From the NCBI GenBank assembly GCA_017535665.1, contig JAFXTS010000025.1, positions 186,001-250,000 on the forward strand: 64,000 nucleotides of DNA, in the 5' to 3' direction. Numbering within the stretch: position 1 is the stretch's first letter; the number at the start of each line of letters is the position of its first letter. A program made the position numbers and the translations under genes. Below are positions 18,152-32,062 of the stretch, one piece after another. This DNA is from Bacteroidales bacterium (lineage in GTDB: Bacteria; Bacteroidota; Bacteroidia; Bacteroidales; WCHB1-69). The notes under the pieces were generated by a model, which saw only the letters and a program-made list of their open reading frames with translations, was not told the origin of the DNA and did not search any database.

Positions 18152-18196
18152 CTGGCCCGTTTTTTGGCGCACTTCTTTCGTATTTTTGCAGCGTTG
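18152..18196 (+). promoter_or_regulatory. Shared 45-bp promoter module, copy 1
   Basis: The module reads CTGGCCCG, then TTTTTTGG, a 13-bp spacer, TATTTTTG, and CAGCGTTG. Three near-identical copies precede genes at 22090, 27251 and 32126. The TATTTTTG is the standard -7 box and the TTTTTTGG sits where a -33 element is expected. The GGCCCG part and the fixed spacing are additional conservation. It ends 19 bp before the start codon at 18215. Confidence 0.85.
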
Positions 18197-18214: not shown

Positions 18215-20299
18215 ATGAACACCATCATTCTTTTCTGGAATCCAGGAATTTCGAGTTACACCATTGAGCGTCTGCGCGAGGATTTAGACATGGAGCAACA
18301 TGTCGGCAACTGGAGCGTGTGGGAGCACGAGAAAGCGCACCAAGGCGACCGTTTCTTTATGGTGCGTTGCGGGGAGGGCAAAACCGGCATCTGTATGAGC
18401 GGCCGCTTCCGTTCCGAACCCTATATAGACGAGGACTGGTCGGGAAAAGGACGGGAAGTGTATTACATGGATTTAATGGCCGACACGGTCATTGACCCCG
18501 ACATCTTGCCCATCCTTTCCACCGAAATACTGTCGCGGGAGATTCCCTCTTTCGACTGGAGTGGCGGACATTCGGGACGCTTACTCCCCACCGAAGATGC
18601 CGAAAAACTGGAGAAATTGTGGGAGGATTTCTTGGAGGAAAACAAGCCCATGTTTGGTACGCTGACGCTCAAATCGCATGTCACTGATAAGGACGTTATG
18701 CCTGATAAAGATGATTTCGGACCCTATCGTGCCAGCATTGGAATTACGGATGATGGCGAATTTTTAATTTATTCTGTGAAGGATGATGTGGAAGTAGTTG
18801 GTGACGACTTGGAAACCGTAAAAAAAGAGTTCGCTAAAAAAATGAAAGAGGCAGGGAAAATCATTCCCATTGAGTTCAAAGTCTGGAAAGTTGACAATCA
18901 GGAATTGTTTCAAAAAGCATTGGATATTGCAAAAGAAGCATACTATGGAATGACCGATGAGTATGGCGAGCCCTATATCAAACGTGCACTCAGGGAAACC
19001 AATAATTTATACTCGGATGCCAAGATTCTGGTGGGCTTGTTGCACTACGTTTTGATGAATCCTAATTTCACCACAGATAAACTGATACAGAAGGGAATTC
19101 CCAAGGCAGTAGTGGATGCCGTTGAAGTTCTGCATCAGAAAGAGGGCGAAAGTTTCGAACAGTACGTTCAACGTATCGGTGAGAATCCTACCGTGGCAAG
19201 CATTCTCTATGATATTGTCGAGAACAGACTGGACATCAAAGATGGTCCCGAACTCACTTTGGAGCAATGTACAGGTCTTTTACAAGATTTGAAAGCATAT
19301 CATTATCTGGATGAAAAGAAGCATCAATGGGAGCGGGCGGTTTTCCACGGACCTGCCAAAGATTTTGACATGTGGTGCAGTCTGTATGGTTGCGCCGACA
19401 CCATTGCCATTTGCGGAGAATACGACGATGACGAACTGGCTGAAATGGCCAATGTACTCCAATATGATTATAGTTGGAAACTGGATATCAGCGGATTGAA
19501 TGTGGGCCGATGGGCAAAAGACAATCCCCATGAAACAACATACGAAGAGCAAATCCTCATGAAATTGGGAGAGGATGAGGTTGTCAATCTCCTTGAAAAG
19601 ATGATTCTCAACAGAAAATACGGCACGATTTTCAGGAAATGGGGTAGCGTAGTCACCTGTGACAATGGGCGTGTACTTGTGCATATTCCTGAAGACTTTG
19701 ACTTTGTGGATGATTCTGATGTGGAAATTATCGGAAGGTGCGCAGTGGCGGGCAATGAGACGATTGAGTCTCTTGAATTACCAGCCAATGTCCGCATCAT
19801 CGATGACTACGCCTTTGCCTACTGCAAAAAACTACGGAATGTGTTTATGCCCGACAGCATAGAATCCATTGGCGAATTCAGCTTTGAGAATTGCGAGATT
19901 GAAAATCTTCATCTATCCAATTCCCTAATGGCTATACCAGATTGCGCTTTTCTCTTTAATGAAATAAAACGCATTGATATCCCGCTAGATGTACGAAGAA
20001 TAGGTTCTTGTGCCTTTGAGGGCAATATACTTGACGAGGAACTTATCATTCCAGAAGGCGTTGAAATCATTGAATCAGCATCATTCTGCTGCACAGCTAT
20101 AAAAAAAGTCTCCCTCCCCTCCACCTTGACTGAGATCGCCTACGACTTTTATTTCGAGGAGATGATTGACGACCCCGAAGAAGACAAACCTTATGTAGAA
20201 ATCCACCCCGACAACCCGGTCTATTTTTCCAAAGGCGGCATCCTGTATAGCCGTGCGACTGGGAAGGAGGTGCTGGGCAAGGCAGGAAGGCCGAACTGA
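18215..20299 (+). CDS. EVE-like / degenerate HD / LRR fusion protein
   Basis: A 694-residue cytoplasmic protein without signal or membrane segments, read as three parts. Residues 1-142 (ILFWNP, NWSVWEHEK, GDRFFMVRCGEGKTGICMSG, SEPY, YYMDL) match the EVE/PUA-like fold, whose members bind modified bases in DNA or RNA. Residues ~230-342 resemble the HD fold of ppGpp hydrolases (ALDIAKEAYYGMTDEYGEPYI, ILVGLLHYVL, GESFEQYVQRIGENP), but the HD pair reads HY, the HP pair RA and the ED pair MN, so it is probably inactive. Residues ~500-645 are BspA-type leucine-rich repeats (IESLELPANVRIIDDYAFAYC). It is first in the accessory island and carries copy 1 of the shared promoter. Function is unknown; a ligand sensor is plausible. 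Confidence 0.7.
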   Translation: MNTIILFWNPGISSYTIERLREDLDMEQHVGNWSVWEHEKAHQGDRFFMVRCGEGKTGICMSGRFRSEPYIDEDWSGKGREVYYMDLMADTVIDPDILPILSTEILSREIPSFDWSGGHSGRLLPTEDAEKLEKLWEDFLEENKPMFGTLTLKSHVTDKDVMPDKDDFGPYRASIGITDDGEFLIYSVKDDVEVVGDDLETVKKEFAKKMKEAGKIIPIEFKVWKVDNQELFQKALDIAKEAYYGMTDEYGEPYIKRALRETNNLYSDAKILVGLLHYVLMNPNFTTDKLIQKGIPKAVVDAVEVLHQKEGESFEQYVQRIGENPTVASILYDIVENRLDIKDGPELTLEQCTGLLQDLKAYHYLDEKKHQWERAVFHGPAKDFDMWCSLYGCADTIAICGEYDDDELAEMANVLQYDYSWKLDISGLNVGRWAKDNPHETTYEEQILMKLGEDEVVNLLEKMILNRKYGTIFRKWGSVVTCDNGRVLVHIPEDFDFVDDSDVEIIGRCAVAGNETIESLELPANVRIIDDYAFAYCKKLRNVFMPDSIESIGEFSFENCEIENLHLSNSLMAIPDCAFLFNEIKRIDIPLDVRRIGSCAFEGNILDEELIIPEGVEIIESASFCCTAIKKVSLPSTLTEIAYDFYFEEMIDDPEEDKPYVEIHPDNPVYFSKGGILYSRATGKEVLGKAGRPN

Positions 20300-20367: not shown

Positions 20368-22008
20368 ATGGAAAAAGTAGGATGCTTCATCGTTTTTATC
20401 ATCTTGGCAGTTCTCTTGTTAAGCACGGATCACCCTGTGCTCTATGGCATCCTTTTTGTTGCGGTTGTATCGTTTTTAGTCTGGATAGAAAGTAAATTTA
20501 AGGAACCTAAAACTTCCTCCACAAAATCAAAAAGTCAGTCTGGAAAGGCCACTTATTCTGAGACTGGACAGGACAAGGAAATCGACCGCGACTACTTCGA
20601 AAAAATCAGCAAAGTGGTGGATGACATGATGACTGTGTATGATTCCGCCATCTCCTCGCAGGAGTTCAGGGATGCTGCGTCTGAAGGAATTGTGTTGCAC
20701 GATGGCGATGAAACGATTAAAGACCCTACCAACAAAATTCAGTATCTTTTTTGGGTAGACATGGCACATTGCGGCAGAGGGCTTCACCTCCCGTATGACC
20801 GTCTCGACAAGACCAGTTATGCGCTCTTTTATTTCATGGAGCGGACAATGGGAGGGAAGAGACTCTCCTACGACAACTATCGGGATTTGTATCGTTCCTC
20901 CAACCATATTATGGCGGAAACTGCCCTCAAAGAGTGCTATTTTTCATATCATGACGCCGAAGACTCGATTTTTTTCATGGTGGCGCATATCTTGGACAAA
21001 ATCGACGAGCTTCAAAAGCAGAAATATCTGGTGCTGCTGTACCGTTTCGCCTCCATCATGGCAAAAGCTGACAATACAGTTACAGAAGAAGAGGCGAAGT
21101 TTCTGAATTCCATCATGCAACTGCAAAGCGATGGGAACAACATTGCGGTAGCAGGAGACGTGGACATGCCAGAGACAGAATACTATAAAGCGCCTTTGAG
21201 TGGAGATTTCAAGTCGCGGAAAGCCTTGGACGACTTAATCGGTCTGGAAAGTGTGAAGCAGGATGTGACGGCACTCACCAACTATATTCGCATTCAGAAT
21301 GCCCGCAGCCAAAAGGGCTTAAAGGCCTCCCCCATCACCTACCACTGCGTCTTCACCGGCAACCCCGGAACCGGGAAAACCACCGTGGCCCGGATTCTTG
21401 CCAACATATACAAGGAACTTGGCGTGGTGTCAAAAGGTCATTTGGTGGAAACCGATCGCTCTGGACTTGTCGGAGAATATGTCGGTCAGACGGCCGTCAA
21501 AACAAACAAGGTCATCGACCACGCTTTAGGTGGTGTCCTCTTCATCGATGAGGCCTATTCTCTGCTTGGCGACGGGAAAGATTACGGCAGGGAGGCCATC
21601 GCAACCTTGCTGAAGCGCATGGAGGATGACCGCAAACGATTGGTGGTAATCTTAGCCGGCTACACGAATGAGATGAAGGCGTTCATCAACTCCAACCCCG
21701 GATTGCAGTCTCGGTTCAGCCGCTACATCGAGTTTCCGGACTACAATGCCGATGAACTTTACCAGATATTTCTTAAGCGACTCAAGGAGTTCGAATACAC
21801 CATCACGCCAGAGGCAGCGGTGGCGTTGAAAGCATATTTCAGTGAGGCGGTGGCGCATAAGGATGCGAACTTCGGCAACGCCCGTTTCGTACGCAACGTC
21901 TTCGAGCGCACCCTGCAGCATCAGGCCAACCGCCTCTCATCGGAGGTGAACCTCACATCGGAAAAGCTGGCGGAAATCACCAAAGAGGATTTGCCAATCG
22001 AGGGGTAA
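20368..22008 (+). CDS. Membrane-anchored TerB-like / CbbX-type AAA+ ATPase
   Basis: A 546-residue protein. Residues 1-42 form one or two hydrophobic segments that should anchor it in the inner membrane. About residues 130-255 end in a TerB-like helical segment (YLVLLYRFASIMAKADNTVTEEEAKFL). Residues ~285-546 are an AAA+ module of the CbxX/CfqX/SpoVK type: Walker A GNPGTGKT at 331-338, Walker B GVLFIDEA at 389-396, and an SRFSR arginine-finger region near 448-452. Relatives remodel protein complexes (CbbX reactivates Rubisco). It is flanked by the two EVE-like proteins and is the only ATP-driven motor in the island. The client is unknown. Confidence 0.85.
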   Translation: MEKVGCFIVFIILAVLLLSTDHPVLYGILFVAVVSFLVWIESKFKEPKTSSTKSKSQSGKATYSETGQDKEIDRDYFEKISKVVDDMMTVYDSAISSQEFRDAASEGIVLHDGDETIKDPTNKIQYLFWVDMAHCGRGLHLPYDRLDKTSYALFYFMERTMGGKRLSYDNYRDLYRSSNHIMAETALKECYFSYHDAEDSIFFMVAHILDKIDELQKQKYLVLLYRFASIMAKADNTVTEEEAKFLNSIMQLQSDGNNIAVAGDVDMPETEYYKAPLSGDFKSRKALDDLIGLESVKQDVTALTNYIRIQNARSQKGLKASPITYHCVFTGNPGTGKTTVARILANIYKELGVVSKGHLVETDRSGLVGEYVGQTAVKTNKVIDHALGGVLFIDEAYSLLGDGKDYGREAIATLLKRMEDDRKRLVVILAGYTNEMKAFINSNPGLQSRFSRYIEFPDYNADELYQIFLKRLKEFEYTITPEAAVALKAYFSEAVAHKDANFGNARFVRNVFERTLQHQANRLSSEVNLTSEKLAEITKEDLPIEG

Positions 22009-22089: not shown

Positions 22090-24039
22090 ATGAAAGAGAA
22101 GAACACCATTGCAATGAATAATCAAAATGAAGTGCCCGATGAAGGCAACAGCATGATCCTTGAAGTTCCTCAAATGTTATTCGATGATTTGCGAAACGGC
22201 ATCTTGAAACACATTGACATTCCTATTCATCTGAACTCATATTCCACTATATTGGAGAATATTGACGGAAATCTCATCCTGAACTGCGATGAAATGCCAG
22301 AAAGTTTTTTCGCTTGCTATTTTTGGAACAATGGTGTTTTCCCGTATTGGGTGAAAGATAGTTTGAAATACATCATATTCAAAAATGAAGACAGGTCGCT
22401 AACTATGAAAATAACAGGTCATTCAGAAAGCGCGGTTGAGCGTTGTGATTTTCTTGAAGACGACACCCTGAAAACGAACCCCAAAGGCAATGCCTGTGTT
22501 TGGAACATTAGATTTGACGTGGAACTTTTAGACTCGCAAGTAATCGGAAATACAGACGAAAACATTCCATCAGTAAGCGTGACACCCCAAAACGAAAAAG
22601 CGGATAAAAGAACAAAAAAGTCAAGGAAAGAAGATAGAAGATTTGACCCTGACCAAGGACACGGCTCCCATTGGGACTGTGTGGTCGAAGACATTGAAAA
22701 TGTAACAGATGACCTTTTTAAAGTGATTACTTCTTCCAATAACTACATTGGGGACGCGAGCATTAAAGCTAATGATGATAATGGAGAGTATGATGCCAAA
22801 ATATTGGCCATATCTCTGGACGAATCCAAAGACTTTACAATCAGAACATTATTGGAGGCAGAAGAAAACGGGAACATTTTTAGGAGTGCCTTCCCCTATG
22901 TTATGAATGAGACAGGTGTACCCATGACACTGACGAAAATCTATGAGTTCTCCAACGGAATTGAGGCTGTGCTTTGCTGCGATTATAAGGATGAAATGGA
23001 ATTCAGGTTCTTTGATGCGGACTACCCTTTGCACAAGGCCGAATACAAAATCGGAGAAACATACAACTTCGCCTTGTCTGCCATCGCATACAATGCAGAG
23101 AAGGTGCCTGACAGTGAAATGTCATTTGAAATTGACCCTGAAACCGTTGAAAAGATGCATAGGTCAGATCCTTCTGTTGTTCGGCGTGACAGCAATGGCA
23201 AGGCTTTGCCCATGAAGATGAGCATGGAAATGTTTGTGACATGTCTCCAACACGATGACCGCTACCCCGATGATGCGGAATTTTGGTCGCCGGTCAAATC
23301 CAAAGTGAGGAAGACGAAGCTACTCGGACGTGATTTTTACCGCATGGAGATATCTGTTCATTACAACGAAGAAGACGAGAATCTGATAATTCCGCTTGTT
23401 GCAAAAACCTCATTCTTTGATGAGAAACCATCCAAAGAGGATTCTGTTCGTGGCTACCTTTGGTTACAGGGTAGAAGGATTGTGAAAACGAGCAGCCAGT
23501 TTGAAAAAGACCCTCACAATTATCCTGGCAACGGGTATAATGATAAGCAGCAGACCTTTATCCTGATGTGGAATCCAGCCTTTTCAAATTCCATGGAAAA
23601 CCATATAGAAAGCATCGGCCATATTAATGACTATAGTTTCAATTGGAGCGTTTACGAGTGGGAAAAGGCCAAAATGGGAGACCGCTTTTATATGATACGT
23701 GTGGGTGAAGGGAACACGGGAGTCGTGATGAGCGGCATATTCACTTCGCAGCCATACGCCGATGAAGACTGGGATCCAAACAGAAACAGACGGAAAATCC
23801 ACTATATGGATATGAAGCCCAACTTCATCGTAAATCCTGAAGAGCAAACTATCATTACCACAGAACAACTACAAGAAGTTATTCCTGACTTTGAGTGGCG
23901 CAGGGGACATTCTGGCCAACCATTGAATACAGAACAGGCAAAGAAATTGGAAAACTTGTTCTCCAAGTATGTTCAGAAGATGTTGAATGTTGATGACAAA
24001 ACGAATGTTGCAATAAGCAATATTGTAAAGCATAGCTGA
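22090..24039 (+). CDS. Large unknown protein with C-terminal EVE-like domain
   Basis: A 649-residue cytoplasmic protein. Residues ~489-640 are a second copy of the EVE-like domain found at the N-terminus of the 18215 gene (FILMWNPAFS, FNWSVYEWEKAKMGDRFYMIRVGEGNTGVVMSG, YADEDW, FEWRRGHSGQPL). The first ~150 residues are a small beta-rich domain that could be ASCH/PUA-like, but this is weak. A charged linker (KADKRTKKSRKEDRR) separates it from a middle domain (~200-480) I do not recognise. It carries copy 2 of the shared promoter, and the next gene begins 2 bp after its stop. A role in recognising modified nucleic acid is inferred from the EVE-like domain only. Confidence 0.65.
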   Translation: MKEKNTIAMNNQNEVPDEGNSMILEVPQMLFDDLRNGILKHIDIPIHLNSYSTILENIDGNLILNCDEMPESFFACYFWNNGVFPYWVKDSLKYIIFKNEDRSLTMKITGHSESAVERCDFLEDDTLKTNPKGNACVWNIRFDVELLDSQVIGNTDENIPSVSVTPQNEKADKRTKKSRKEDRRFDPDQGHGSHWDCVVEDIENVTDDLFKVITSSNNYIGDASIKANDDNGEYDAKILAISLDESKDFTIRTLLEAEENGNIFRSAFPYVMNETGVPMTLTKIYEFSNGIEAVLCCDYKDEMEFRFFDADYPLHKAEYKIGETYNFALSAIAYNAEKVPDSEMSFEIDPETVEKMHRSDPSVVRRDSNGKALPMKMSMEMFVTCLQHDDRYPDDAEFWSPVKSKVRKTKLLGRDFYRMEISVHYNEEDENLIIPLVAKTSFFDEKPSKEDSVRGYLWLQGRRIVKTSSQFEKDPHNYPGNGYNDKQQTFILMWNPAFSNSMENHIESIGHINDYSFNWSVYEWEKAKMGDRFYMIRVGEGNTGVVMSGIFTSQPYADEDWDPNRNRRKIHYMDMKPNFIVNPEEQTIITTEQLQEVIPDFEWRRGHSGQPLNTEQAKKLENLFSKYVQKMLNVDDKTNVAISNIVKHS

Positions 24040-24041
24040 CC

Positions 24042-25502
24042 ATGAAACTACACAAAGAATATCCCGCCACCCACTCGATGTCCACCGCATGGTATGTCGC
24101 CGACGAGGACGGCAATGTGGGCATTATGGACTTCAACGAGAACGGCCCAGTGCCGTGGAAAACGGAAGAAGCCAGTGTGGAGGAACTCGTATTTGGTTAC
24201 GAGGAGGACTACAAGACAAAGGAATACAATCTGGTAAGCTTGACAGATGCGCAAATAGACGAGTTGATACATACCCCTCATTCTCCCGAGGAGGAAGATC
24301 TTTGGATGGATTGTATCATCCAAATTGATGTAGAAAAAGAAAACGCATTTCTGGAACTTGCAAAAGACTCCGATTTTGACCTTGAATTTTGCGTGTCAAA
24401 AAAGCGTGGTTTATATAGTATAGATGCCTATCATTGTACATCAGCCCCCCACAAGGATGGAAAGTACCAGATTCTTGAAACATCTTCTCTCAGAAAAATG
24501 CTTGACAAAAACATCATTTTGCAAGTATTCAAGAAACAATCTTTTTGGATGGATGACGAGTGGAAAGATGAAAAATTTGTTCATACAAAAGTGTTTGACA
24601 AAGCCCCATACTATATTTTCCACCAACCCTATTGGTATGATCTTCTTCCCGAATGCATGAATGTACCAGAACATCCCGTGAAACTGGAACAATTCCCGGA
24701 ATCGCTCCGACAAAGAGTTCTTAAATTGCCAATTCGATTTGAGGAAACGAAACAGTTCCAAATTGCCGAATGGCATCCCTGCAATCTTTCACATTGTTAT
24801 GACTCCCCAATCAATGTGGTTGATGGCTGTGAATATATGTTGCTTCCTATGACTGGAGGAGAGAAGGCGTATCTCAATACGGAGATTATCCTTGCTTCTG
24901 AGTTTTTCAAATACTGTTCTGAAAAAGAGAAATATGGTTGCAGCGAGTGCAGGAACTACTGCTATACCAGATATGCCGACAATGACACAAATCATCCCAC
25001 CGTGCTTGCCATCTTGGAGCCGCTTTACGATTGGACTCCTGCCTTGAAAGAGGGGATCGGTGCAATCGCATCGAGGTGTTTATGGCTGCCTTTTCTTCCC
25101 AAAATTCCCTATAAAATAAAAAAACGCCTCAAACCAAGCGAATTGTCTTCCGAAAAATACGAATTTGACCCTTCCGAAAGGGATATACTAAAACACGTCA
25201 GCGGTCGCAGGCTTTTGGGACTGTTCAGGAAGAACAAGCAGTGGTTAGAAGACCAAGTGGCACGGTTTAACCCGCGAGTAATCCTGATCAGCGGCGCGGC
25301 GGAGGCTATTATGGAAGCAGTCTATCCCATAAGAGATAACCGCATAGAAATCAATGGCGTCTCTTATCCGACGTACCTACTGCCGGAGGTGGAAACACAC
25401 CGCGAGGAGATTGAACGGCTGGCGGCAATGCCCTACCAAGGGAAGAAAATTCCTCATATCATCTCTGTGGAGGAAATGGAGAAACTTAAGCGGCAACAAT
25501 GA
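24042..25502 (+). CDS. Unknown cysteine-rich protein coupled to radical SAM gene
   Basis: A 486-residue soluble protein of unrecognised family. The N-terminal ~60 residues (STAWYVADEDGNVGIMDFNENGPVP) look like a small beta domain seen in various bacterial hypothetical proteins. Around residues 280-315 four cysteines cluster (CSEKEKYGCSECRNYC) and could bind zinc or an Fe-S centre. The C-terminal ~100 residues are alpha/beta (NPRVILISGAAEAIMEAVYP). It begins 2 bp after the EVE-like gene and overlaps the radical SAM gene by 4 bp (ATGA), which suggests that it works with that enzyme as substrate, partner or recognition subunit. Confidence 0.6.
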   Translation: MKLHKEYPATHSMSTAWYVADEDGNVGIMDFNENGPVPWKTEEASVEELVFGYEEDYKTKEYNLVSLTDAQIDELIHTPHSPEEEDLWMDCIIQIDVEKENAFLELAKDSDFDLEFCVSKKRGLYSIDAYHCTSAPHKDGKYQILETSSLRKMLDKNIILQVFKKQSFWMDDEWKDEKFVHTKVFDKAPYYIFHQPYWYDLLPECMNVPEHPVKLEQFPESLRQRVLKLPIRFEETKQFQIAEWHPCNLSHCYDSPINVVDGCEYMLLPMTGGEKAYLNTEIILASEFFKYCSEKEKYGCSECRNYCYTRYADNDTNHPTVLAILEPLYDWTPALKEGIGAIASRCLWLPFLPKIPYKIKKRLKPSELSSEKYEFDPSERDILKHVSGRRLLGLFRKNKQWLEDQVARFNPRVILISGAAEAIMEAVYPIRDNRIEINGVSYPTYLLPEVETHREEIERLAAMPYQGKKIPHIISVEEMEKLKRQQ

Positions 25503-26236
25503 TAGAGCTTTTGTCCATCGACCTGTCGAACTACTGCAGCAAGCAGTGCCCGTTCTGCTACAACCACAGCACGCGGGAAGGGAACACCCTATGGCAACCT
25601 CAGGAAGTGATCGCTTTTGCCTCCGACTGCATCCGCAACGGCGTAAAGGCCGTTTCGCTCGGTGGCGGCGAACCCTTTGAGTATGAAGGTGTTTTTGATG
25701 TTATCGATGCCTTGTATCCACAATGCTATCTCTCTGTCACTACCAACGGACTGCCATTGGAGAAAGAGAATGCTTGGAACAATCTGCTTGCCCATAAGCC
25801 CGACAAAATCCACGTCACCATCCACCAGCCCGAGAATCCGCAGGAAGTGGAAAGAGTACTGAACCTCGTGCAACGCATTGCCGGCATCGGAATCAAGCCG
25901 GGGGTGAACTTGCTGGTGGGCACCGACAAAATCGATAAAGCCGCAACCGTCTATCAGCAGTTGTCGCAAATACTGACTCCCGATCAGATTATCCTTGTGC
26001 CGCAACGGTTTTCCAACACGCCTACATCTAAACAGTTAGCCGCCGTTGCCGACGGAAAGCCCTTTCAGAGTCCTTCCTGCCTTTTGGAGTGCCGCCCGCC
26101 GCAGAACTTCTGCTCCGTATCGTGGGACAAAAAGGCGGCCCCGTGCAGTTTTGCCCCATGTAAGGAGCCGCTGCCCTCGCTTGACTTCGCAGGTTTGGAA
26201 GCATCCCTCAAAAACGTGCGATGGAGTCGTTGCTGA
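25499..26236 (+). CDS. Radical SAM protein
   Basis: A 245-residue enzyme that should cleave S-adenosylmethionine to start radical chemistry. The 4Fe-4S site is CSKQCPFC (Cys13, Cys17, Cys20), followed by the SAM-binding GGGEPF. A second cysteine group near the C-terminus (SCLLECRPPQNFC, PCSFAPC) resembles a shortened SPASM-type auxiliary cluster region, hinting at a peptide or protein substrate. It overlaps the upstream cysteine-rich gene by 4 bp. No short precursor-peptide gene was found next to it. It differs from viperin-type pVips in lacking their conserved motifs as far as I can see. Confidence 0.88.
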   Translation: MIELLSIDLSNYCSKQCPFCYNHSTREGNTLWQPQEVIAFASDCIRNGVKAVSLGGGEPFEYEGVFDVIDALYPQCYLSVTTNGLPLEKENAWNNLLAHKPDKIHVTIHQPENPQEVERVLNLVQRIAGIGIKPGVNLLVGTDKIDKAATVYQQLSQILTPDQIILVPQRFSNTPTSKQLAAVADGKPFQSPSCLLECRPPQNFCSVSWDKKAAPCSFAPCKEPLPSLDFAGLEASLKNVRWSRC

Positions 26237-26272: not shown

Positions 26273-27163
26273 ATGAAAGCTTCTGCACTTTTTAAAGAAT
26301 ATGTATGGCTGGTGGGCACCATCAGGCGGGCGGGGCGCATCACCCTGCGCGAAATCAACGAACGGTGGCTGCGCACAGAAATGAGCGACGGCGTAGAGTT
26401 CAGCCGCACCACCTTCCGCCGGCACCGCACCGAAGTGGAAGAGATGTTCGGCATCAACATCGACTGCGACAACGAAAACCGCTACTACATCGACGATGCG
26501 GAGCTGTTTCGCGAGGAGAGTGTGCAGCAATGGATGCTGAACACGCTCACGGTCAGCAACATCGTGAGCGAGGCGCGTGGTCTGCACGACCGCATCCTGC
26601 TCGAAAGCATCCCCAGCGAGAGCGAGCACCTGCCGATGGTGGTGGAGGCGATGCGCGAGAACCGATGCCTTTCCATCAGTTACCAGCGTTATGGGAAGGA
26701 TAATGTAAGCCACTGGGTGATAGAACCCTACTGCATCAAACTTTTCCGGCGCCGCTGGTATCTGCTGGGGCGTATGGCCGATGGAGGCTTCCTCACCCTC
26801 TCGTTCGACCGCATTACCGAAATGGCCATGCTGGACAAGACGTTTGAACTGGCCCCGGATTTTGATGCACAGACCTATTTTTCCAACTATTACGGCGTTA
26901 TGCAGGGCGGCAGCGAGCCGAAACAGCGGATGGTGCTGCGGGCGTTCGGCAACGAGCGGTTTGCCATGCGCGACCTGCCGTTGCACCACTCGCAAAAGGA
27001 GCTGGCCGTAGGCGATGACTACGTGGACTTTGAGGTCCGTCTGCACCCCACGAGCGACTTCTTGGCGCAGATCCTCTCCCGCGGCCGCTGGCTGAAGGTG
27101 TTGGAACCGAAAGAAATAGCGCTGAAAATCAAACAGATGCACCTGGAAGCAGCGGAAGAGTAG
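26273..27163 (+). CDS. WYL-domain transcriptional regulator
   Basis: A 296-residue protein. The N-terminal ~75 residues form a winged-helix-like region (ITLREINERWLRTEMSDGVEFSRTTFRRHRTEVEEMFG). The WYL domain follows (~135-205: CLSISYQRYGKDNVSHWVIEPYCIKLFRRRWYLLGR), then a WCX-type C-terminal part ending in LKVLEPKEIALKIKQM. WYL proteins sense nucleic acid or nucleotide ligands, and many control phage-defence loci (for example BrxR and CapW). It is in the middle of the island and has its own promoter, so it is the natural candidate to control the shared 45-bp promoter module. That link is inference. Confidence 0.9.
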   Translation: MKASALFKEYVWLVGTIRRAGRITLREINERWLRTEMSDGVEFSRTTFRRHRTEVEEMFGINIDCDNENRYYIDDAELFREESVQQWMLNTLTVSNIVSEARGLHDRILLESIPSESEHLPMVVEAMRENRCLSISYQRYGKDNVSHWVIEPYCIKLFRRRWYLLGRMADGGFLTLSFDRITEMAMLDKTFELAPDFDAQTYFSNYYGVMQGGSEPKQRMVLRAFGNERFAMRDLPLHHSQKELAVGDDYVDFEVRLHPTSDFLAQILSRGRWLKVLEPKEIALKIKQMHLEAAEE

Positions 27164-27188
27164 TTTTTTTTCTGAAAAAAAACCACCA

Positions 27189-27233
27189 CTGGCCCGTTTT
27201 TTGGTGCAGTGCCTGTATATTTTTGCAGCGTGA
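27189..27233 (+). promoter_or_regulatory. Shared 45-bp promoter module, copy 3
   Basis: Reads CTGGCCCG, TTTTTTGG, a 13-bp spacer, TATTTTTG, then CAGCGTGA. It ends 18 bp before ATG 27251. Its position rules out the earlier in-frame ATG at 27209. Confidence 0.85.
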
Positions 27234-27250
27234 ATTTAAAACAACAGATT

Positions 27251-27652
27251 ATGAAAGCACAAAGCAAATTTTACATGGACTGCCACTTGGCTGGTCGCAA
27301 GTTTCACGATGCAGATCTTGTTTGGGACCGTTTGAAAATAGGAATGCCGCTGCGCTTGGAGCGTGAAGCCGACAACCGCTACGACCCCGAAGCTGTGCAG
27401 GTCATCCTCAACAGCGACGGTGAAGATTTCCTCCTTGGCTACATTCCCCGCGGCGACAACCAGCAACTCTCACCCTTCTTCGACATGGGTCACAACGACC
27501 TTTTCGAGTGCCGCATCAACCGCATCAACCCGGACGCCCATCCCGAAGCGCAGGTACAGCTGACGATACGGATACGGAGGAAGGAAGAAGAGGATGCCAC
27601 TATTGAAATTGAAAACACTAACAATCGTTCAACCCGTAAAAGTCGCAGATAA
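27251..27652 (+). CDS. HIRAN-domain protein
   Basis: A 133-residue protein starting at ATG 27251. Almost the whole chain is a HIRAN domain (HLAGRKFHDADLVWDRLKIGMPLRLEREADNRYDPEAVQVIL, then FLLGYIPRGDNQQL). In the eukaryotic helicase HLTF this OB-like fold binds 3' DNA ends; bacterial stand-alone versions are probably nucleic-acid binders too. It has copy 3 of the shared promoter and overlaps the next gene by one base (TAATG), which implies coupled translation with the SIMPL protein. Confidence 0.85.
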   Translation: MKAQSKFYMDCHLAGRKFHDADLVWDRLKIGMPLRLEREADNRYDPEAVQVILNSDGEDFLLGYIPRGDNQQLSPFFDMGHNDLFECRINRINPDAHPEAQVQLTIRIRRKEEEDATIEIENTNNRSTRKSRR

Positions 27653-28305
27653 TGAGTGAATCAACCATAAAAGTAGTGGGCACCGGCAGTATTCATGTGG
27701 TGCCAGATGTAACGCGGTTAGAAATCAGCATTGACCGTGTTCTGAAAAGTTATGATGAAGCATACGAATGTGCCAAGGAGAATAGTGCTTGGATGGTCAA
27801 AATATTGGAATACAACAAGATGTCGGGCAAATTGGCTAAAACCATCCGCATGGATATTTCAGAACATCAGATGAACATTTATCAGGGTGGGAAGTATGCA
27901 GGCACAAAAAAAGATGGTTATGAGTTGGATCAAAAAATCAAGATAGATCTTGGGATGGACAATAATTTGATAAATAATATTGTGCGTGGTGTCGGCAAAT
28001 TCATCAAAGAGGCACAGATCAATATTGGCTATACACAGCAAGACCCGCGTCCAACACAGCTGAAAATGCTGGAACGAGCTGTTAAAGACGCTCACGACAA
28101 AGCCCAGATTATGGCAAAAGCAGCGGGTCGTGAATTAGGAGAGGTAAAGAGTATTGAATACGGGAAAATGGAGATCTCCATATACTCTCAAGCTCGTAAC
28201 ATCTGCTGCGAAGAGGCCAGCCACTGCACCCCCGAAAGCCTCGACATCACCCCCGACGACCTCGTAGTCAGCGATAATGTTCATGTAGAGTGGGAGTTGA
28301 AATAA
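27652..28305 (+). CDS. SIMPL (DUF541) domain protein, cytoplasmic form
   Basis: A 217-residue protein of the SIMPL/DUF541 family (IKVVGTGSIHVVPDVTRLEISI at the N-terminus, AVKDAHDKAQIMAKAAGRELGEVKSIEYG towards the C-terminus). Most bacterial SIMPL proteins are periplasmic and carry a signal peptide; this one starts directly with the domain and has none, so it should be cytoplasmic. Its start codon overlaps the stop of the HIRAN gene. Three cysteines near the C-terminus (ICCEEASHC) are unusual. The biochemical role of SIMPL is not established; in animals the founder links to IL-1/TNF signalling, which does not inform function here. Confidence 0.85.
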   Translation: MSESTIKVVGTGSIHVVPDVTRLEISIDRVLKSYDEAYECAKENSAWMVKILEYNKMSGKLAKTIRMDISEHQMNIYQGGKYAGTKKDGYELDQKIKIDLGMDNNLINNIVRGVGKFIKEAQINIGYTQQDPRPTQLKMLERAVKDAHDKAQIMAKAAGRELGEVKSIEYGKMEISIYSQARNICCEEASHCTPESLDITPDDLVVSDNVHVEWELK

Positions 28306-28371
28306 TGGAGCCTCGATTGTTTCTCTCACAAAATTTCCGTCAAAATCTTTCGGTAACAGCGAAAATAATTG

Positions 28372-28379
28372 TATTTTTG
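28372..28379 (+). promoter_or_regulatory. -7 promoter box for DUF262/DUF1524 gene
   Basis: TATTTTTG followed by C, 31 bp before the start codon at 28411. Confidence 0.65.
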
Positions 28380-28410
28380 CAATTGATAATTATATAAATC
28401 ACACTTTCAT

Positions 28411-30162
28411 ATGAGCAAATTAAATGTTGATCAGAGGACAATTTTTGATCTTTTTTCAGATAGAAAATCGGATTTTTTAATCCCTGATTATCAGAGGCCG
28501 TACGCATGGCGTAGTGAAAAGGAGTGCCAAACATTGTGGGATGATGTTTTTGCGTTTTCTTTCCCAGAAAACGACTATTCAAAATTTGATAGTGACAATG
28601 ATGAATATTATCTTGGCCCTATTGTGACTTTCAAGAATGAATCCGGAAAAATGGAGATAATCGATGGACAACAGAGACTTACGACACTAATGCTTCTGTT
28701 GAGAGCATTTTATGAGAAATTTGGGAGAATGCAAGATGAAAACTCTAAAAACACCCGAGATAACCTTGCTCTCTGTATTTGGAAAACAAATGAATTTAGG
28801 AAGCCTGTAATGGATAAACTAAAAATTGATTCCGAAGTAGCCACTGACAACGATAAAGACGAATTTCTGGAGATTTTAAGGACAGGGGTAGCTAAACCTG
28901 AAATGAAAAGTAATTATGCCCAAAACTATCGATTTTTTCAAGAAAAAATAAATATCTTTTTGAATGAGTTTCCCAGTTTTTTCGCATATTTTCCGAATAG
29001 ACTCCTTAACAATTGCATCCTACTTCCTATCGAAGCGGACAACCAAAATACAGCACTTCGTATTTTTTCAACCCTTAATGATCGTGGAATGCCCCTGTCC
29101 GATGCTGATATTTTCAAGGCTCAATTTTATAAATACTATTCTCACATAGGCAAAAAAGATGAATTCATTAAACGCTGGCGTGCTTTAGAGGAATTGTGTT
29201 GTGAAAATTTTCACCCATCAACGGGAACACCGATGGACGAACTTTTCACCCGATATATGTACTACTTGCGTGCAAAACAGGGAAACAAATCTTCTACTAC
29301 AGAAGCTTTACGTCGTTTCTATGAACGTGACAAATATGCATTGCTAAACAATTCACAAGCATTGAATAATTTAGAAATACTTGCTAACTTTTGGGATGAT
29401 GTGTTAAGTCAAAATACTGCTCGCTTTTCGGACGAGGTATTGAGACGCCTCTACGTTCTCAATTATGCTCCTAATGGAATGTGGGCATATATAGTATCTG
29501 TATATTTCTTGGCAAACAAAGACAATAATAACAACATAGATAATGACAAATTCTATACCTTTCTCAATAAAATCACAGCTTTCATTTGGGCGTATGCGAT
29601 TACTAATCCTGGCGTAAATGCCCTTCGCACGCCTATATATGCAGAGATGGTAAACATTATTGAAGGCCGCGATATTAGTTTCTCCGAATGGATTTTTGAT
29701 TCGGTTACTCTAAAATCCATGCTCAATAATTATTCGTTTGCCAATAATCGTGCTATTACCAAATCAATGCTAACATGGTGGGCTTTCAACGATGCAGAAC
29801 AACCGTACCTCGATTTAGATACTATAATTGAAATTGAACACATTTATGCCCGCAAGAGGCAAGATAGTCTTAAAGAGCTTCGCAACCCAAAAAATCTCGA
29901 AGTATTAGGAAATAAATCAATTCTTGAGAAAAAAATTAATATTCGTGCATCTGACTATAGATTCGAAGATAAGACCAAATATTACAAAGGCGAATTACTT
30001 GATAGAAGGCAAAATAGAAAAGCAGGTACCAAAATCGTTGAATTAATCAAGCTATCTGAAACTCATAAAGATTTTGTTGAATCTGATATTGAATCCCGAA
30101 ACAATGACATTTTTAATGGTTTTATTAAGTATTTGCAACAAAACAATCTTATCAAAAACTAA
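28411..30162 (+). CDS. DUF262-DUF1524 protein (GmrSD-type nuclease family)
   Basis: A 583-residue single-chain member of the GmrSD-like family. The N-terminal DUF262 (ParB-like NTPase fold) has IPDYQRPYAW at 24-33 and the signature DGQQRLTTL at 85-93. The C-terminal DUF1524 part has an HNH-type core: EHIY at 476-479, then NLEVLGNKSILEKKINIRASDYRF. The catalytic-type His477 is present, but the usual Pro after the histidine motif is absent. Family members restrict modified phage DNA (GmrSD, BrxU, SspE-related). The gene is visibly more AT-rich than the island's HIRAN and WYL genes, which suggests separate acquisition. Confidence 0.87.
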   Translation: MSKLNVDQRTIFDLFSDRKSDFLIPDYQRPYAWRSEKECQTLWDDVFAFSFPENDYSKFDSDNDEYYLGPIVTFKNESGKMEIIDGQQRLTTLMLLLRAFYEKFGRMQDENSKNTRDNLALCIWKTNEFRKPVMDKLKIDSEVATDNDKDEFLEILRTGVAKPEMKSNYAQNYRFFQEKINIFLNEFPSFFAYFPNRLLNNCILLPIEADNQNTALRIFSTLNDRGMPLSDADIFKAQFYKYYSHIGKKDEFIKRWRALEELCCENFHPSTGTPMDELFTRYMYYLRAKQGNKSSTTEALRRFYERDKYALLNNSQALNNLEILANFWDDVLSQNTARFSDEVLRRLYVLNYAPNGMWAYIVSVYFLANKDNNNNIDNDKFYTFLNKITAFIWAYAITNPGVNALRTPIYAEMVNIIEGRDISFSEWIFDSVTLKSMLNNYSFANNRAITKSMLTWWAFNDAEQPYLDLDTIIEIEHIYARKRQDSLKELRNPKNLEVLGNKSILEKKINIRASDYRFEDKTKYYKGELLDRRQNRKAGTKIVELIKLSETHKDFVESDIESRNNDIFNGFIKYLQQNNLIKN

Positions 30163-30228
30163 TCCAAGATGAGTATGTCGTTTATTGTATAGCAAGTGTA
30201 CATAATACGATTCTATCTATGAAAGAAA

Positions 30229-31644
30229 ATGCAAATTGACGGTTTACTTCAAAATGGTTGGCAGCGTCTTCAAAGTCTGCCAAAAGACCCTCGTGAATCT
30301 GTTTCAATAGGAAAAATAACGCCAAATGCACAATGCTTTGCTCTTCTCTTTCCTATTGACATACATCGTGCAATGCCTTTTGATAACATTCAAGTGATAA
30401 TTGATGGTATACATGATGCCTTGCATGACAATCAAGCGCTAATAGAGGTGAACAGAGGGTGCACAGAAGACGGAAGAAAGTACATTTATAGCATTGTAAA
30501 AACACTTCAGATCAACTTGGATAGTGTACAGTATTTCTTAAGAGCATCCCTTGAAACAAACAATGGTATGATTGAAGTGAATGCATTTTTTGATGAAATT
30601 GGAACAACTGGAATTCGAGATAACACCATTTACGAGGCAGTGAGACGCAAATATCCTGAAAAAGAGATTCCATGGACTTTTGATCCCTACGATAAACTTT
30701 CTCAACGCCATTATCTGATGAATCTATCTGAATTAGAACAATATGACCATCTATTTCCTGAACATCCGCTGTCGCAAGCTCGTCATCTGATACACATTTT
30801 ATGTTCTCCCCAAACGCAAATTTCTACAAAAAAAATAAAAACAACTATTATCACAGACCCCTTCCGCGAACCGCGACAGCTAGTCAACGACTTCATCAAC
30901 GAACATCTCAACGGGAACATCAACAAACTGATTGATTACGATTTCCGCCAGTTGAAAGGAATTGAACGTTACGGGGATACAGAAGGCTACTCCTTTGACA
31001 TCTATCGCACCCAGCTGGTACGCGCCATCGCTACCCTTGTTTTCAAAGACATCGCCCCAAAGGAAGTGATGTTCCACCCGAAACGTGGAACCTTGATACT
31101 TGCCCCGTCACCACTAATCGCAGAGAATTTATGGGGAGAACAAATAGAGGACAAATTTGTAATGTTTTCTGTTTTAAGATTTTGCCACAATCAAAAAGAA
31201 TGGGCACCCCGCATCATTCCTTGTGCAGCCTTATGCAACTCAATTGGCAACCTCTATTTGCAACCCTACCCTTTGGCCGATTACCGGCACAGCCACACTT
31301 TGGGACGATTCCTTTCCGACCACGCACTCAATGACCTTTACAACACGCTGATGGATGAAAAGTCGGGAAGCCCATTGATGAAAAAAGTGGTGGCAGAGGC
31401 AAAAAAATTCTTCGAACCTTATCGGGGGGCGGACGGATGGCAACTGCTCGTGGAGCGGTGGCTCATTGAAGGACTTGTTGACTATTATTGGAATCCGGAA
31501 CCTTTCTTTAACGATTTCACACTCAATGCCGACATTCCTACCGATGTTTATTTCAAAGCCTTGAACCAATGCATTGAGATGTGCCACGAAATCATTCCTA
31601 AACGGGCCAAACGTATGGTGCAAAAATTGAAGGATGACTTGTAG
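30229..31644 (+). CDS. Protein of unknown function downstream of GmrSD-type gene
   Basis: A 471-residue soluble protein. The first ~150 residues form an alpha/beta domain (CFALLFPIDIHRAMPFDNIQVIIDGIHDAL, then GMIEVNAFFDEIGTTGIRDNTIYE) that vaguely resembles DcrB/DUF1795-type folds. A short conserved-looking linker follows (SELEQYDHLFPEHPLSQARHL). The C-terminal half (~210-471) is mostly helical, with many His and Trp residues. I do not recognise the family. There is no clear -7 box in the 66-bp gap after the DUF262/DUF1524 gene, so the two may be co-transcribed and functionally paired. Confidence 0.6.
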   Translation: MQIDGLLQNGWQRLQSLPKDPRESVSIGKITPNAQCFALLFPIDIHRAMPFDNIQVIIDGIHDALHDNQALIEVNRGCTEDGRKYIYSIVKTLQINLDSVQYFLRASLETNNGMIEVNAFFDEIGTTGIRDNTIYEAVRRKYPEKEIPWTFDPYDKLSQRHYLMNLSELEQYDHLFPEHPLSQARHLIHILCSPQTQISTKKIKTTIITDPFREPRQLVNDFINEHLNGNINKLIDYDFRQLKGIERYGDTEGYSFDIYRTQLVRAIATLVFKDIAPKEVMFHPKRGTLILAPSPLIAENLWGEQIEDKFVMFSVLRFCHNQKEWAPRIIPCAALCNSIGNLYLQPYPLADYRHSHTLGRFLSDHALNDLYNTLMDEKSGSPLMKKVVAEAKKFFEPYRGADGWQLLVERWLIEGLVDYYWNPEPFFNDFTLNADIPTDVYFKALNQCIEMCHEIIPKRAKRMVQKLKDDL

Positions 31645-31659
31645 AATTATTTTCTTCAG

Positions 31660-31667
31660 TATCTTTG
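31660..31667 (+). promoter_or_regulatory. -7 promoter box for antitoxin-like gene
   Basis: TATCTTTG followed by C, 27 bp before ATG 31695. It supports 31695 rather than 31665 as the start. Confidence 0.6.
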
Positions 31668-31694
31668 CAGTCGCAAGTTTTAAACAAAAGAATT

Positions 31695-31925
31695 ATGGCA
31701 ACTGTAGTAAACCAGCCATTTAATAGAGCTCAGATTGAGATTCTGAATGCTATGGCCAGTTTGAAATCAGAAGAAGGTTTGCGAGAATTGCAACAAGCTA
31801 TTTCAAATTTCTTCGCAGAACGTGCAGACAGTGAAATGGAGCGCCTTTGGGAAGAAGGTGTCATCAACGAAGAGGTGATTGAAGGATGGAAGAACGAACA
31901 CATGAGGACTCCGTATCACCAATAA
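31695..31925 (+). CDS. Small antitoxin-like protein, no partner seen
   Basis: A 76-residue protein starting at ATG 31695. It is mainly helical (AQIEILNAMASLKSEEGLRELQQAISNFFAERADSEMERLWEEGVINEEVIEGW) and ends in NEHMRTPYHQ. Small Bacteroidota proteins with this layout and a C-terminal H-x-RTPY motif commonly sit upstream of PIN or other toxin genes and act as antitoxins. Here the following 200 bp hold no toxin gene. The call rests on recalled pattern similarity and is tentative. Confidence 0.55.
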   Translation: MATVVNQPFNRAQIEILNAMASLKSEEGLRELQQAISNFFAERADSEMERLWEEGVINEEVIEGWKNEHMRTPYHQ

Positions 31926-31952
31926 ATCAGAGATTTTTCTCATTTTAAAATA

Positions 31953-31974
31953 TTGGAAACCATATCATTTCCAA
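31953..31974. other. Inverted repeat after antitoxin-like gene
   Basis: TTGGAAA and TTTCCAA are separated by 8 bp, 27 bp past the stop. No T-run follows, so it is a weak terminator at best, or a protein-binding site. Confidence 0.3.
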
Positions 31975-32062
31975 AAGTCAATGTAATAACACTTGAACAA
32001 TTTGCGGAAAGCTTCTAAAGTTCAATTCACAGTATTTCAACATTTTTTGAAAAACGGATTTA

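Follow-up and report, generated by a model that had tools for sequence, protein, structure and literature searches.

A Bacteroidales EVE-LRR protein carrying an alarmone hydrolase-type HD domain with altered active-site residues

Why would a protein keep a hydrolase fold whose active-site residues are gone, placed between an EVE-like domain and leucine-rich repeats (LRRs)? This question is raised by an open reading frame (ORF) in a stretch of 64,000 nucleotides from a Bacteroidales bacterium (GenBank assembly GCA_017535665.1, contig JAFXTS010000025.1), referred to here as the window, which is part of a 2.56 Mb assembly. The focal ORF (18215-20299, plus strand; ORF listing of the window) encodes 694 amino acids. 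A preliminary description had read it as an EVE-like domain joined to an inactive SpoT/Mesh1-type HD domain and LRRs, and had suggested a sensor that may bind a nucleotide or modified base instead of cleaving it. The architecture was borne out by Pfam, phmmer and an AF2 model, and the motifs quoted for it (AKEAYYGMTDEYGEPYI, LLHYVL and GESFEQYVQRIGENP) are all found in the focal ORF. The explanation favored here, with somewhat better than even confidence, is that the protein is an EVE-LRR reader or scaffold of a conflict- or stress-type module, in which the pseudo-hydrolase has a scaffolding role.

Domain layout and the EVE-like domain

The focal protein begins with an EVE/YTH-like domain (aa 1-142, 18215..18640; AF2, Foldseek and a 41-member alignment), followed by a linker with a small alpha/beta unit (aa 143-228, 18641..18898), a catalytically dead HD domain of the SAH type (aa 229-371, 18899..19327; phmmer, profile and Foldseek), a middle alpha/beta region (aa 372-499, 19328..19711; AF2 secondary structure) and BspA-type LRRs (aa ~506-690, 19712..20296), all on the plus strand. 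The LRR part matches PF13306 (LRR_5 repeats; Pfam, 2.6e-29, 102 bits), and the linker is common to two other EVE-HD proteins, L059 and the intact L058 (alignment, AF2, blastp). In the divergent gap upstream of the ORF lies the element TATTTTTG (18181..18188, plus strand; read from the sequence), called promoter-like here on the basis of TAnnTTTG, which is presumably the Bacteroidales -7 consensus. A pseudogene or frameshift was ruled out, as intact ORFs of this kind are present in five genomes from three genera.

The N-terminal 142 residues are without a Pfam or NCBIfam match. With the 41-member alignment of the focal EVE domain type as input, AF2 gave a model with a mean pLDDT of 93.4, for which Foldseek found 46 matches in the PDB at E<=0.001. 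These are EVE, YTH and VcaM4I structures or uncharacterised proteins of the same fold, and include MJECL36 (2p5d), PH1033 (1wmm), YTH-m6A complexes (among them 4u8t), the EVE-HNH endonuclease VcaM4I (6yex) and 2eve. The Pfam EVE profile (PF01878) leaves the focal protein unmatched and recognizes one of the 41 members, L048 (3e-7, above cut-off), in which the same EVE domain type is fused to a McrB-type AAA domain. Four residues are invariant across the alignment (W33, G63, L106, P111) and five more are nearly so (W8, N32, W75, Y84, W115). By analogy with the YTH/EVE fold, it is suggestive that some of these could form a base cage, and binding of a modified base by the focal domain is plausible from its predicted fold. 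A viral origin of this EVE type was also considered, but a single scan of viral contigs turned up no example; in phage and plasmid records, only one domain was matched at a time, with no match covering 80% of the query.

Loss of the HD active site and retention of the fold

The relationship of the HD domain to alarmone hydrolases is well documented: aa 229-371 align without a gap over 143 residues with the (p)ppApp hydrolase of Bacteroides caccae (7smg) in a single-sequence phmmer search (7e-18), and a profile raises this match to 2.3e-47. An AF2 model of aa 143-510 superimposes on 7smg with a target-normalised TM score of 0.85-0.86 at about 2 A (Foldseek); its input alignment contained intact SAHs, which favors an HD fold in the model, and the single-sequence match is independent of that. 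The HD fold predicted for residues 225-345 is thereby confirmed. Its proposed extent of 230-342 captured the HD region but not its end, which lies at about residue 371.

By fold and sequence similarity the domain groups with the SAH/Mesh1 type, but the metal ligands H...HD...D and the catalytic ED pair are missing. According to a table of ligand positions, the first metal His is replaced by Y243 (18941..18943), the HD pair by H277-Y278 (19043..19048), the catalytic ED by M281-N282 (19055..19060) and the last metal Asp by I334 (19214..19216), with an Asp one residue earlier in the focal copy; all codons are on the plus strand. The loss of the HD pair and the other ligands, as first described, therefore holds overall, except that the His of the pair survives in the focal copy as H277. 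The missing ligands are not an artefact of alignment: no gap separates the focal protein from intact homologues at the first His, HD and ED positions, and the comparison confirms the loss.

Among 104 genomes of the host family, four further full-length proteins were recovered (L035, L036, L037 and L038), about 50-65% identical to the focal protein. The first His position is Y in all four; the HD pair position reads QY or SG, so that its His is kept only in the focal copy; the ED position reads RN, KN, KH or RH, and the last Asp position I or E. These homologues bear on the idea that the domain still hydrolyses something via a rearranged site, for which H277 and the Asp adjacent to the last metal Asp position could be cited as remnants in the focal copy. 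Neither is kept across the homologues, however, and all five full-length proteins lack the first His, the Asp of the HD pair and both residues of ED, which leaves residual hydrolysis very hard to credit.

Conservation is unevenly distributed along the full-length set, with mean pairwise identities of 81% for the EVE domain, 59% for the LRRs, 42% for the HD domain and 38% for the linker. If any domain recognizes a ligand, the EVE domain, as the most conserved part, is the first choice. Apart from Y243 and P283, the conserved HD columns are mostly hydrophobic scaffold residues. The HD domain has a dN of 0.27-0.38 in the three closest comparisons, with dS at about 1.5 or more; dS is near saturation, so that the dN/dS ratio is roughly known, but it is below one. 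The HD domain is thus under purifying selection. This matters for the proposal that the HD domain lost its function, has simply been decaying since and plays no part, while EVE and LRRs do the work. Such decay would fit the low conservation of the HD domain, linker and middle region, the HD-less relatives L039 and L040, in which an EVE domain 84-86% identical to the focal one is joined straight to another LRR protein, and the deletions in the HD domain of L059. Five diverged copies nevertheless keep an open frame and a full-length scaffold, dN remains clearly below dS, and the shared-derived residues Y243 and P283 are invariant in all five, so that decay is considered unlikely. Because four relatives are also dead while dN is below dS, the focal HD domain is, as far as sequence comparison can tell, a maintained pseudoenzyme.

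A separate pattern was seen in the LRR part (19712-20296), which has a dN of 0.11 to L036, compared to about 0.5 for the linker and middle parts; relative to L035, the LRRs are not closer than other parts. This suggests module recombination within the focal gene.

Intact relatives and other EVE fusions

Most of the related genomes in the public collection are Bacteroidales MAGs from rumen and gut. A scan of a genome collection with one genome per species (84,980 species) yielded 33 loci. The most informative protein is encoded by L058:6001-7155, from the uncultured Bacteroidales RUG12482, which combines an EVE domain, a linker of the focal type and an HD domain, without LRRs. Its HD ligands are all intact (KHAGQVDKEGKPY, LLHDIVEDT, KMADLEDN), and residues 1-376 of the focal protein are about 40% identical to its residues 1-365 over 376 aa (blastp). 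Since a fusion with an intact site exists elsewhere, the ligand loss in the window's branch is, judged from the sequences, a derived state. L060:6001-6900 likewise combines EVE with an intact HD domain, but lacks the linker, and its HD domain apparently belongs to a different subgroup; both L058 and L060, like the stand-alone SAHs, have the metal and catalytic residues. The HD domains of L059 and L082 (3308-4042) are degenerate. L060, with an intact HD domain, and L082, with a degenerate one, represent another kind of EVE-HD fusion that has no linker.

In the tree, the window clade is found close to L058 and to stand-alone SAHs from the same family. The tree is weakened by long branches, and a single origin for the EVE-linker-HD proteins was not rejected (AU p 0.21). 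The fusion of EVE with an SAH-type HD domain probably arose at least twice, because L060 is without the linker and holds its own place in the tree, on a long branch. Searches of the host genome found one long RSH, but no stand-alone SAH and no small alarmone synthetase.

These relatives give some substance to a receptor model, in which the pseudo-HD domain would bind (p)ppGpp, (p)ppApp or a relative uncleaved and signal to EVE and LRRs: the domain comes from an alarmone hydrolase family and has retained its fold, an intact EVE-SAH exists in L058, and the long RSH of the host can make alarmone. A pocket kept for binding would be conserved, however, and this one is variable, which speaks against the HD domain as a nucleotide sensor. 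Substitutions are found at the positions of the metals, the catalytic residues, the lysine of DK, the histidine of HP and the Asn that follows the Asp, and they differ among the dead homologues (E/R/Y at 249, R/L/H at 257, R/E at 338). With metal, catalytic and phosphate/base-side positions varying among the five, the initial suggestion of a retained nucleotide binder finds no support, and a receptor function appears distinctly unlikely. Most likely, to judge from this variation, the dead HD domain serves as a structural part or protein contact rather than as a sensor pocket. In the favored scaffold explanation, the ancestor of the HD domain would have been an active alarmone hydrolase of the EVE-SAH kind seen in L058; after catalysis was lost altogether, the folded domain would have been kept as a spacer or for protein contacts, much as with the pseudo-hydrolase of RelA.

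The same EVE domain occurs with several other partners, and some EVE proteins stand alone. It is fused to a NADAR domain in L066:4917-5894 (PF08719, 4e-53), and similar-looking proteins were seen at L069:505-1482, L070:6001-6978 and L071:2686-3723. In L042 and L045, LRR proteins carry EVE at the C-terminus, and a long N-terminal region precedes EVE in the window's own 22090-24039, L061 and L062. EVE is joined to a C-terminal Cys-rich, Zn-type region in L064, L067, L073, L079-L081 and L083. This region has the pattern CxxCG ... CxCxNC and resembles by eye an HNH/McrA treble clef without the usual HH; its hosts are Bacteroidales, Fibrobacter and MAGs labelled Proteobacteria. An HNH nuclease was suspected there by eye, but PDB, Pfam and NCBIfam profiles gave no support.

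Gene neighbourhood and comparison with known systems

From the focal gene to about 36 kb, all genes of the window are co-directional. The focal gene is followed by genes for a SpoVK-type AAA protein, a second EVE protein, a Cys-rich protein and a radical SAM protein, and then by WYL, HIRAN, SIMPL, a GmrSD-type protein and others. The AAA neighbour (20368..22008, plus strand) has an N-terminal hydrophobic segment, a helical region and a SpoVK/CbxX-type AAA ATPase domain (TIGR02881, PF00004, PF17866); its TIGR02881 match (9e-95) is below that model's cut-off, and a TerB domain suspected by eye was dropped, being without Pfam support. In all four informative loci (the window, L035, L037 and L038), the full-length protein has this gene, or the N-terminal part of it, as a neighbour; L036 begins at a contig end and was left out of the count. 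The next protein (22090..24039, plus strand) consists of an N-terminal part and a second EVE-like domain at the C-terminus (about 23551-23979; 44% identity to focal aa 3-142). At 24042-26236, the gene for the Cys-rich protein of 486 aa overlaps the radical SAM gene, and L038 has retained both (64% and 85% identity).

Further downstream lie a WYL-domain regulator (26273..27163; PF13280, 5e-13) and a HIRAN-domain protein (27251..27652; PF08797, 3e-14), both on the plus strand. In L058, a WYL homologue (52% identical) lies two genes ahead of the EVE-SAH gene, and HIRAN homologues directly precede the EVE genes in L058 and L064. Gene order differs between loci: WYL, HIRAN and EVE fusion follow each other in L058 (4587-5914) and L064 (4710-5968), and L041 has the order EVE protein, LRR, AAA, WYL, HIRAN. 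The WYL-HIRAN pair of the window (26273-27652) recurs beside EVE fusions, and close homologues of the HIRAN protein, sharing at least 76% identity, occur in 15 of 103 family genomes, the window's own included. Around the GmrSD-type gene (28411-30162), G+C drops to 0.39 (28001-32000) from about 0.51 in the flanks, and recent acquisition of this region is possible. No PADLOC family matches the focal protein, and among its neighbours only WYL, HIRAN (PDC-M03B), AAA, viperin-like and GmrSD-like models were matched. Judged by its WYL, HIRAN, AAA and LRR genes and by those that are restriction-like, the cluster may form a conflict- or stress-type module; the absence of a PADLOC model for the protein, the varying gene order and the existence of stand-alone EVE proteins count against this reading. 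As the favored reader or scaffold of this module, the focal protein would be cytosolic and non-enzymatic; its EVE/YTH-fold domain might recognize a modified base in DNA or RNA, as the fold would allow, and the LRRs together with the adjacent, membrane-linked SpoVK-type AAA protein could provide protein contacts and an ATP-driven output, as the gene context hints.

Fusion of a modified-base reader to an effector is known from the EVE-HNH protein VcaM4I (PMC7897488), and a census of EVE domains describes many fusions as well as YafY/WYL neighbours (Bell et al., 2020; PMC7641849). The focal protein shares with EVE/YTH/DCD domains the fold, the fusion to varied effectors and the WYL neighbours. 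A text search of the census found no mention of LRR, leucine, Mesh1, HD domain or NADAR, and among the papers covered by a literature search, none joins an EVE domain with alarmone or with NADAR, an absence that is no proof of novelty. Compared to the SAHs of B. caccae (7smg) and P. aeruginosa and to Mesh1, the focal HD domain is alike in fold and sequence (TM 0.86), but all its metal and catalytic positions except H277 are altered, and it is fused to EVE and LRRs. The closest precedent for such retention is RelA, in which an inactive HD pseudo-hydrolase of the RSH superfamily is kept as a non-catalytic part (Sinha and Winther, 2021; PMC8012599). Both domains are inactive and retained; however, that of RelA regulates a synthetase domain, whereas the focal protein is without a synthetase and has EVE and LRRs as partners. 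Like RelA, the dead version would thus exemplify an RSH-type HD domain that persists without catalytic function.

L058 has the same EVE-linker-HD order as the focal protein, but its active site is intact, LRRs are lacking, and it lies directly behind WYL and HIRAN genes. A speculative and rather improbable extension is that modified nucleic acid gates alarmone turnover in intact members of an EVE-SAH class such as L058, and that the window's branch has become an alarmone-responsive or partner-binding switch of an immune-like EVE-LRR-AAA module. In these proteins, a modified-base reader fold and alarmone metabolism are tied together in one polypeptide, of which intact and dead versions can be compared. 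If the intact fusions are active, they would make it possible to ask directly whether alarmone levels can be controlled by the modification of nucleic acids.
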